Origin: a bacterium
GTDB taxonomy: Bacteria > UBA9089 > CG2-30-40-21 > SBAY01
NCBI GenBank assembly: GCA_040757115.1
Contig: JBFLYA010000099.1
Span: forward strand, 1 to 13,838
DNA: 13,838 nt
Direction: 5' to 3'
Below the pieces are notes generated by a model. The model was not told where the DNA came from. It made no database searches and saw only the letters and a program-made list of their open reading frames with translations. Below are positions 1-4,626 of the stretch, piece by piece. Made by a program: the position numbers and the translations under genes. Position 1 is the first letter of the stretch, and each line of letters begins with the position of its first letter.

Positions 1-133
1 TAGAAATTGATTGTGGAAAACAACAAATTTCCATAAATTTCTATTAGTTTCTATTAATTTCAATTTTTTTAATAATATCTCCCTATCTCCTTAATCTCCA
101 CATCTCCTTTTGTTACACCACCTGAACACTTAC
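1..133. repeat. Degenerate AT-rich short repeats at the window edge
   Basis: No gene is visible in positions 1-208. Bases 1-44 form an imperfect hairpin: TAGAAATT at 1-8 pairs with AATTTCTA near 37-44, and an inner GGAAA pairs with TTTCC. It is followed by near-copies of TTTCTATTA. ATCTCC then occurs four times, starting at 77, 85, 94 and 102, a loose 8-9 bp period. CTGAACACTTAC at 122-133 is the reverse complement of GTAAGTGTTCAG, one member of the GTAANNNTTCAG terminal motif that recurs through the window. The left part of this region lies outside the window, so element borders cannot be fixed. Confidence 0.5.
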
Positions 134-1062: not shown

Positions 1063-1974
1063 TTATCCTCCTGAAGAACAACCCCCAACTAACCCTATCG
1101 GTCTAATCAAATGCCTTTTCAACCACCTCTCTACCTCTTTCATCCCCAACGCCAGACCCAATATCTCGGTAAAATAAAAGATAGGCATATTTGTTCCATC
1201 CTGGCGCATTTCAAGGTTTGTTTGACACAACGGGCAGGCAGTAACAATACATTCTGCACCCGCCTGTTTTGCCATACTAACAAGTTTCCCCACCAATTCA
1301 ACTACCACTGGAGATTGCGATAAAGATAATCCTGCCCCACAACAGTCTGTTTTATATGACCAGGAAACCACATCACAGCCGCAAGCATCAAGGATTTTAT
1401 CCATAGATTGTGGCTGTTCTACAGAATCAAATCCATCCTTTTGTGGTGGTCTGGTTATCAAACAGCCGTAATAAGGAGCAACCTTTAACCCGGACAAAGG
1501 TTTTTTTACCATTTTAGCAATTTGTCCTACTTCCTGATAGAGCACATCTAACAAATGCCTGACCTTAAGTTCACTGGAAAGTGGAACTCCCTCTTTTTGT
1601 TCCAACCTTTGAATGTCCCCCGCTGGCGGGGGTAAGGGGGTGGAATATCGTGCGATACCAACTATTTGTTCCAACCTTTGTCTTTTCTCACCATCCTCTC
1701 TTAATTCCTTATCCGCCTGTTTGAGATTGCTATAACAGGCTGAACAAGGGACAGCTATATCCAGACCTGCATTTTGAGCCAGCAGGATATTGCGACTACT
1801 CAGGTCTGTAGATAAGTTATGATTCAAGCTATGCGCCGCACTGGCTCCACAACAATTCCAGTCAGGAATATCTATCAATTCTATATCCAATTTATGACAC
1901 ACTGCTCGTGTTGACTCATCATATTCCTTGCCTGTAGAATGAAGTGAACAACCGGGATAATACGAAAATTTCAT
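1063..1974 (-). CDS. hdrB: Heterodisulfide reductase subunit B-like protein (two CCG domains) with in-frame palindrome insertion
   Basis: This 303-residue protein is HdrB-like, with two cysteine-rich CCG domains. The first uses C9, C41, C42, C77 and C80; the second uses C171, C211, C212, C247 and C250. In HdrB these bind the two non-cubane [4Fe-4S] clusters that reduce a disulfide or pass electrons to a partner. The start lies one base after the hdrC stop (TAAAATG), with an AGAGGTG ribosome site inside the end of hdrC, so the two are coupled. Residues about 99-125 carry a 23-residue insertion in the linker between domains; without it the length would be about 280. The C-terminus ends in an extra GGCSSGG tail. 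No HdrA, Mvh or Flox gene is in the window, so the electron donor and the physiological substrate are unknown. Both cluster sites look complete. Confidence 0.9.
   Translation of the reverse strand: MKFSYYPGCSLHSTGKEYDESTRAVCHKLDIELIDIPDWNCCGASAAHSLNHNLSTDLSSRNILLAQNAGLDIAVPCSACYSNLKQADKELREDGEKRQRLEQIVGIARYSTPLPPPAGDIQRLEQKEGVPLSSELKVRHLLDVLYQEVGQIAKMVKKPLSGLKVAPYYGCLITRPPQKDGFDSVEQPQSMDKILDACGCDVVSWSYKTDCCGAGLSLSQSPVVVELVGKLVSMAKQAGAECIVTACPLCQTNLEMRQDGTNMPIFYFTEILGLALGMKEVERWLKRHLIRPIGLVGGCSSGG
1596..1680. repeat. Palindromic repeat inserted in frame in hdrB, flanked by a 16-bp duplication
   Basis: TTTGTTCCAACCTTTG occurs at 1596-1611 and identically at 1665-1680, exactly 69 bp (23 codons) apart. 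Between them are the perfect palindrome CCCCCGCTGGCGGGGG (1617-1632; 7-bp stem, TG loop), a GTAAGGGGGTGG tail, and a second hairpin at 1641-1660 (TGG+TATCG pairing with CGATA+CCA, AA bulge). The protein shows QRLEQ twice, 23 residues apart, with a proline-rich PLPPPAGD between. This reads as an element insertion with duplication of its target that kept the frame. The same palindrome type recurs at 10046-10061. Confidence 0.8.
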
Positions 1975-1975
1975 T

Positions 1976-2494
1976 TTATTTACACCTCTTAAACATTTGC
2001 TTCACAGCCTTTCTGCCTTTAATAATCTCTGGGAATATACTTAACTTACCCTTAATAAACATATCCCGTCCCAGTTGCATATCCTGGAACAGGTTGGCAC
2101 TTCTTAGCTTGTAGAGCCCAATCAATTCTACCTCGTGTGTCCTGCCCCATCTTTTAACACTATCAAGGAATAGTTGATGGAACATAGTCACATTTGGTTG
2201 TTTGCTGGGTATTTTTTCTTTTATGGCTATTTCTCGAAGGGTATCCATCACTCTGGGAATATCAATTTGCATCGGGCATCTGGTAAGACAGGTTTGACAT
2301 CCAACACATAACCAAATGACAGAAGAGCAAAGCACTCTATTTTTGTCTCCCATCTGAATCATTCGGTTAATCTGATTAGGTTTGTAGTCCATCCAGGAGG
2401 CGATGGGACAACCGGATGAGCACTTCAAACATTGAAGACATTTATTTACATTTTGATTACTTTTTTCTCTTATTTGTAACTCTAAATTCATCAT
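1976..2494 (-). CDS. hdrC: Heterodisulfide reductase subunit C-like ferredoxin protein
   Basis: This 172-residue protein is HdrC-like. It has two classical [4Fe-4S] motifs, C19-C22-C25-C29P and C63-C66-C69-C73P, followed by a helical C-terminal part typical of HdrC. It is expected to be cytoplasmic and to carry electrons between an HdrA-type flavoprotein, or another donor, and HdrB. The start at 2494 is preceded on the minus strand by AAGGA with a 6-base spacing. An ATG one codon later (2491) is also possible. It is the first gene after a consensus promoter and is followed by hdrB after one base. Absence of hdrA nearby means the complex partner must be encoded elsewhere. The alternative is a GlpC/LutA-type redox pair, but the order C then B and the double CCG partner favour Hdr. 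Confidence 0.88.
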   Translation of the reverse strand: MMNLELQIREKSNQNVNKCLQCLKCSSGCPIASWMDYKPNQINRMIQMGDKNRVLCSSVIWLCVGCQTCLTRCPMQIDIPRVMDTLREIAIKEKIPSKQPNVTMFHQLFLDSVKRWGRTHEVELIGLYKLRSANLFQDMQLGRDMFIKGKLSIFPEIIKGRKAVKQMFKRCK

Positions 2495-4459: not shown

Positions 4460-4529
4460 TCCTCTGTCCTCTGTCCTCTGCCCTCTGCCTTCTGCCCTCT
4501 GCCCTCTGCCCTCTGCCTTCTGCCCTCTG
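4460..4529. repeat. Heptamer array, CCYTCTG-type, 10 units
   Basis: Ten perfectly phased 7-bp units: TCCTCTG three times, then CCCTCTG or CCTTCTG seven times. Only the first and third bases of the unit vary. The array resembles the short tandemly repeated heptamers known from cyanobacteria. It lies in the outer element, in the gap between the MFS and FapA-like genes. Confidence 0.85.
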
Positions 4530-4626
4530 TACTTATCCGTGCTAATCCGTGTTAATCAGTGGCTGAATAGATACTATTCCAGAGGTTCATGAATTTTCCG
4601 AATGCCTCCAAACGAATTTAATTCAC

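Follow-up and report, generated by a model that had tools for sequence, protein, structure and literature searches.

An in-frame palindromic insertion in hdrB of an uncultured bacterium and its probable mobilization by a DUF559 nuclease

The window analyzed here is a stretch of 13,838 nucleotides, contig C99 of a 4.3 Mb draft genome (the source genome, G000). It contains a gene for an HdrB-like protein and an hdrC-like partner gene (Table 1). Two CCG domains (PF02754) are recognized in the HdrB-like protein by Pfam, and its matches to the HdrB-type NCBIfam models fall below the curated cut-offs. One of its closest homologues with a named record comes from a Candidatus Desantisbacteria MAG, which makes Desantisbacteria the probable phylum. 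Within hdrB, the 16-mer TTTGTTCCAACCTTTG occurs at 1596-1611 and again at 1665-1680, 69 bp from start to start, and a 16-mer direct repeat arose in 0 of 2000 shuffles of the 501-bp region. In the protein, QRLEQ is present at residues 99-103 and 122-126, a spacing of 23 residues. HdrB homologues from the same phylum are exactly 23 residues (69 bp) shorter at this site, reading RQELEQVVGRQWTGSVQVRHLL where the source protein reads RQRLEQ, 23 residues and then KEGVPLSSELKVRHLL. Deletion of 69 bp from hdrB restores the exact homologue length, confirming that these 69 bp, or 23 codons, are a true in-frame insertion. In the AlphaFold model, residues 110-131 have a pLDDT below 50 and would form a disordered loop that separates one cysteine-rich CCG domain from the other. 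A preliminary description had proposed the 16-bp duplication 69 bp apart, the repeated QRLEQ, an in-frame palindromic element and an extra peptide between the CCG domains, and it had suggested that homologues would lack exactly 23 residues here; all of this was upheld.

Table 1. Features of the hdrB region, in window coordinates
Feature	Position	Strand	Basis
hdrB, HdrB-like protein, 303 aa, bearing the insert	1063..1974	-	Pfam CCG x2; homologue alignment
Duplicated host sequence, second copy (QRLEQKEGVPLS); 1596-1611 perfect, rest diverged	1576..1611	-	repeat and homologue alignment
33-bp palindromic core, repeated mobile unit; exactly 11 codons; minus-strand translation STPLPPPAGDI	1612..1644	+	genome-wide copies
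Hairpin CCCCCGCTGGCGGGGG of the core	1617..1632	+	genome counts, folding
G-rich tail TAAGGGGGTGGA of the core	1633..1644	+	alignment of copies
Duplicated host sequence, first copy (QRLEQIVGIARY); perfect over 1665-1680, its final 16 bp on the + strand; IVGI similar to VVGI in homologues	1645..1680	-	repeat and homologue alignment
Second small palindrome TATCGTGCGATA	1646..1657	.	single occurrence in genome
hdrC-like partner gene	1976..2494	-	context only

The hdrB of a congeneric species (G001) carries a letter-for-letter identical insert in a region of 92% identity. Because the insert is present in the assemblies of two species, an assembly artefact is disfavored. The insertion either predates the split of the two congeners or passed between them. 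The insert and its flanks run for 108 bp without a difference between these species, which are about 92% identical, and window 1531-1699 contains 2 differences from G001 where 14 would be expected. This low divergence reflects either recent recombination or constraint; since the conserved tract reaches past the insert, recent recombination also fits. Over a somewhat longer interval, window 1439-1699 compared with L038, 3 differences separate the congeners and about 22 would be expected. Folded as single-stranded DNA, the whole 85-nt stretch is no more stable than expected by chance (z -1.2), and its reading as a structured RNA or a terminator was rejected for this chance-level folding.

The mobile unit is the 33-bp core alone, an oriented hairpin followed by a G-rich tail. 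In its exact form, the hairpin (CCCCGCNNGCGGGG) is found in 78 copies in the source genome and 23 in the congener, while the reversed-sequence control has 0 matches in both and 0 matches to CCCCCGCTGGCGGGGG are expected in the shuffled window. The copies have in common TGTCCCCCGCTGGCGGGGG, a short spacer and then AGGGGGTGGAA, with TGTC or TATC as the 5' foot of the hairpin and the G-rich tail on its 3' side. They are arranged as solo units, in tandem, as inverted pairs or inside several larger repeats with terminal repeats of their own, and many lie within repeats whose ends are of the CTAGTGCTCTGTCGC, TATATGCAATC and CGACCTGTGCGGTTAG types. Core and tail together were detected in 5 of the 98 genomes searched, all five within the phylum. 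The preliminary description had anticipated further copies of the palindrome with its tail in the source genome, and these are numerous. It had also placed two hairpins between the repeats, and both exist. The first is the multicopy hairpin of the core; the second, TATCGTGCGATA, occurs once in the genome, inside the duplicated host copy and outside the mobile unit, and was rejected as a part of the element.

The core is mostly intergenic, and only a small minority of its copies lie in genes: about seven genic loci were counted among roughly 240 model matches in the loci searched and retrieved. In relatives, the same 33-nt unit is found in an smc, a hypF and an amidase gene. Exact GGCGGGGGTAAGGGGGTGG was found at five sites in 290 genomes, all five in frame in conserved genes: hdrB (G000 and G001), smc (G001), and the amidase gene and hypF (both G010). 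A model search added two further in-frame genic cores, in a cobB-type gene (G010) and a Ca-ATPase gene (G007). HypF is exactly 21 residues longer than its solved homologues 3vth and 4g9i, and its insert splits the IIRRxRGYAP motif, of which the duplication leaves one copy whole. The Ca-ATPase has 28 residues where the solved homologue 9euq has 5, a gain of 23. In smc, the core is located in the hinge, where the protein of G000 is 10 residues shorter than that of G001. Additionally, a DUF559 gene in G003 bears an in-frame core of its own type, and yhcG of G007 (C184) is apparently truncated at a core. Among the loci searched, hdrB is the only conserved gene of the source genome found with an exact in-frame copy, the other genic copies being in relatives. 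The preliminary description had looked to the source genome for copies in genes that keep the frame, and this held for several genes of relatives and, in the source genome itself, for the exact copy in hdrB. In the frames in which hdrB, smc and hypF read the core, the TAA variant is needed, because the commoner TTA variant would place a stop there. The TAA variant in genes thus looks like the outcome of selection for the reading frame and not like a special form that invades genes.

The gain in hdrB consists of the 33-bp core and a further 36 bp that seem to duplicate adjacent hdrB sequence, perfect over 16 bp and diverged over the remainder. Because the upstream copy runs on as IVGI, similar to the VVGI of homologues, the duplication of host sequence seems to measure about 36 bp rather than 16, and its conserved end is apparently what is seen as the perfect 16-bp repeat. 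The total gains are 69 bp in hdrB, 63 bp in hypF and 69 bp in the ATPase. In hdrB, hypF and the amidase gene, the flank match on either side of the core was reached by 0 of 300 random placements each within the same locus, the amidase duplication lying in a region that is repetitive anyway. The match at the Ca-ATPase is marginal (15 of 300 random placements), and the smc and cobB-type copies have no flanking duplication relative to random placements. Direct duplications are, in sum, long at three of six genic copies, marginal at one and absent at two, and the core itself is a palindrome. The duplicate copies in hdrB share 16 identical bases and are then about half identical; those in hypF have identical ends around a differing 9-base patch. 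Such clustered-patch divergence is not predicted by simple duplication plus drift.

Inverted cores are present on both sides of a DUF559 gene at six loci (G010 C79, G007 C10, G001 C44, G008 C124, G000 C76 and G000 C347), the last three of which are gene remnants. A further DUF559 locus, G000 C228, has a core on one side. At the six loci with both flanks, the core stands in forward orientation on the upstream side of the gene and in reverse orientation on the downstream side, no more than about 100 bp away, and at several DUF559 loci its tail occupies the position of a ribosome-binding site immediately ahead of the DUF559 start. Further types of DUF559 in the phylum are accompanied by matching cores of their own, CCCCCTTAATAAAGGGGG with TTAGGGGGTTGT and CCCCTCTTGAGAGGGG with GTAGGGGGTGTGTT, in addition to a TTGATGGGAGAGGG type. 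In a strict flanking-inverted-repeat test, 15 of 27 DUF559 loci passed compared with 1 of 162 control placements. The other 12 loci fell below the strict threshold (L318, L328, L332, L333, L335, L336, L342 and L343 among them), some having one-sided or partial cores or lying at contig ends. By this measure, DUF559 and the palindromes are strongly linked, though not at every locus. In the phylum, the strict core is present in five genomes, and the same five have a DUF559 gene flanked by it, a co-occurrence (5 of 19 genomes) with a probability of 1 in 11628 (p 9e-5) if the genomes are independent, which ignores shared ancestry. G005 has weaker core-like matches and no DUF559 match.

The same inverted layout is found at plasmid DUF559 genes of four Deinococcus species, the cyanobacterium Pseudanabaena, and the alphaproteobacteria Azospirillum lipoferum, Sphingomonas and Sphingobium; plasmid loci of these five genera are among the 15 that passed the strict test. 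No DUF559 gene was found in viral contigs, and phages yielded two weak records. Aligned DUF559 proteins possess invariant D, E-x-D-G, H and D residues, and by sequence the endonuclease-like protein 3hrl is a solved homologue. DUF559 has been described as a Vsr-like PD-(D/E)XK domain (PMC12907096) and has been assigned to the EDxHD family of homing endonucleases (PMC9403480). On a Sphingomonas plasmid (L340, 1480-1890), a DUF559 gene and its palindromes lie between sufB and sufC. The C-termini of some DUF559 proteins are the translated downstream palindrome: PPPNPRQRG, PPPAPASGG, PPTPSQEG and PNPSPEGEG (L279, L298, L306 and L340). On plasmids of Gloeocapsa, Picosynechococcus and Allocoleopsis (H83, H84 and H85), palindromes resembling the flanks of the Pseudanabaena DUF559 gene overlap annotated NRPS, DUF1156 and pentapeptide-repeat genes, and these are possible further genic insertions.

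Several known systems share features with the core. The Rickettsia palindromic elements (RPEs) are described as repeats of about 150 bp inserted in frame in unrelated housekeeping genes, with nearly half of them within genes, and no mobilizing enzyme is named for them in the passages of the review consulted (PMC10969869). The copies in hdrB, smc, hypF, the amidase gene, the cobB-type gene and the Ca-ATPase gene are likewise inserted in frame. In contrast to RPEs, the core is 33 bp long, is mostly intergenic and has a candidate nuclease. In REP/RAYT systems, the enzyme gene is described as lying between two inverted copies of the palindrome (PMC2817692). The core resembles REPs in being an oriented, abundant and short (20-40 bp class) multicopy palindrome, and the enzyme gene again lies between two inverted copies whose sequence tracks the enzyme subtype. 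However, DUF559, of the PD-(D/E)XK type, stands in place of a Y1 HUH transposase, and the core has a 3' G-rich tail and no GT(A/G)G head. Because the enzyme is different, the core and DUF559 are not a REP/RAYT system. Like MITEs, the cores are small, non-autonomous, multicopy repeats, and some lie within MITE-like repeats with terminal inverted repeats; the solo genic core, in contrast, is not bounded by separate terminal inverted repeats, and the duplication beside it is long and of variable length. DUF559 belongs by description with the Vsr-like and EDxHD endonucleases (PMC12907096; PMC9403480) but is here a free-standing nuclease gene flanked by multicopy palindromes, with no intein or intron seen. 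By analogy, the core and DUF559 seem to work like REP and RAYT, and the genic copies look like RPEs.

The explanation that we favor, and hold to be somewhat better than an even proposition, is that a non-autonomous, REP-like selfish palindrome was inserted in hdrB after mobilization by a DUF559 nuclease. That palindromes flank DUF559 genes in several groups of bacteria suggests that they are moved by this enzyme. On the analogy of RAYT and REP (PMC2817692), an autonomous unit with its non-autonomous copies should look like this: an enzyme gene set between inverted copies of a palindrome that is found throughout the genome. From this anatomy, we infer that the DUF559 nuclease is probably the mobilizer of the core. 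Two inverted cores with a DUF559 gene between them would be the autonomous form, and DUF559 would take the role that the RAYT transposase has for REP elements. The nuclease may cut staggered nicks in target DNA, into which a copy of the core would be joined or copied, and gap filling would then leave 16-36 bp of duplicated target. In hdrB, such an event would have copied about 36 bp of host sequence to the other side of the core, adding 69 bp with the frame kept and 23 disordered residues. Most genic insertions would be lost, and the rare ones that keep the frame would persist.

Each of the alternatives accounts for some of these observations. The core could travel inside MITEs that unrelated transposases mobilize, with solo genic copies as remnants or gene-conversion products and DUF559 as a passenger. 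Many copies do lie inside repeats with their own ends, and intergenic copies may hitchhike by way of another transposase. Nevertheless, the six genic copies have no such ends, one core is present in several unrelated repeats, and cores match the DUF559 subtype across genera, with similar layouts in other phyla, so that this explanation is unlikely. That no dedicated enzyme is involved, the core having been captured by template switching during break repair and DUF559 merely preferring such sites, is decidedly unlikely as well. Template switching would account for the duplicated flanks and their patchy divergence, including a duplication length that varies from 16 to about 36 bp, is absent at two loci and is patchy at two, but it is at odds with a precise 33-bp unit common to independent genic insertions and with the DUF559 flank architecture in several phyla.

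The two remaining alternatives are less probable still. Mobilization of the core, as a classical REP, by a RAYT of the Y1 HUH family is very improbable, even though it is a multicopy short palindrome, often in inverted pairs, and Y1_Tnp genes exist in these genomes. By published description, RAYT genes invariably lie between two inverted REPs (PMC2817692), but the core was present at 0 of 15 Y1_Tnp loci from four genomes (G000, G001, G007 and G010), and the GT(A/G)G head is absent from the 5' foot of the hairpin. RAYT was rejected as the mobilizer because none of these 15 Y1 loci carries the core. There is very little probability that the hdrB insert is a functional linker or a regulatory DNA or RNA element under selection. 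The identity of insert and flanks between the two congeners speaks for such a role, but the loop is predicted to be disordered, the folding energy is ordinary, an identical core is found in unrelated genes and intergenic repeats, and the conserved tract exceeds the insert, as recent recombination would also explain.

Beyond hdrB and the preferred role of DUF559 there, we give even chances to a broader proposal, that DUF559 nucleases and palindromes with a hairpin and G-tail together make up a class of minimal mobile element that is widespread and differs in mechanism from REP/RAYT and from known transposons, its solo copies contributing extra peptides to proteins in several bacterial phyla. 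The genomes compared are drafts and are related to each other. No literature linking DUF559 with palindromes was found in a search that was thin on subscription journals, and the novelty of this link is provisional. In-frame coding palindromes, best known from Rickettsia, are extended here to a distant uncultured phylum, where a single, defined unit of 11 codons is inserted in several housekeeping genes and a concrete candidate for the mobilizing enzyme can be named. Should DUF559 be the mobilizer, this common family of unknown function would acquire a role, and many anonymous bacterial palindromic repeats would be explained.

Other repeats were noted in the window and elsewhere. A core variant ending in AAGGAGGTGGAAAAGAATG forms a near-perfect ribosome-binding site for an 85-aa ORF with four paired cysteines, at about 1996-2040 of L191 (G001 C75) and about 2015-2058 of L282 (G000 C204). 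At 4475-4530 of the window, CCTCTGCCCTCTGCCTTCTG repeats near an intergenic stretch resemble those beside one core family elsewhere in the genome. A separate dispersed repeat (TAGAAATTGATTGTGGAAAACAACAAATTTCC...) is common to the start of the window (1-130) and another contig (L036), and an inverted, probably dispersed repeat, CACGAATTTCACGAATT ... AATTCGTGG, lies at 2620-2790 between hdrC and an MFS-like gene. In L033 (G000 C7), at about 1200-2100, CRISPR-like direct repeats GTGCGAATAATAGACCTGATGAATAAGGGATTGCGAC surround a Y1 transposase gene.
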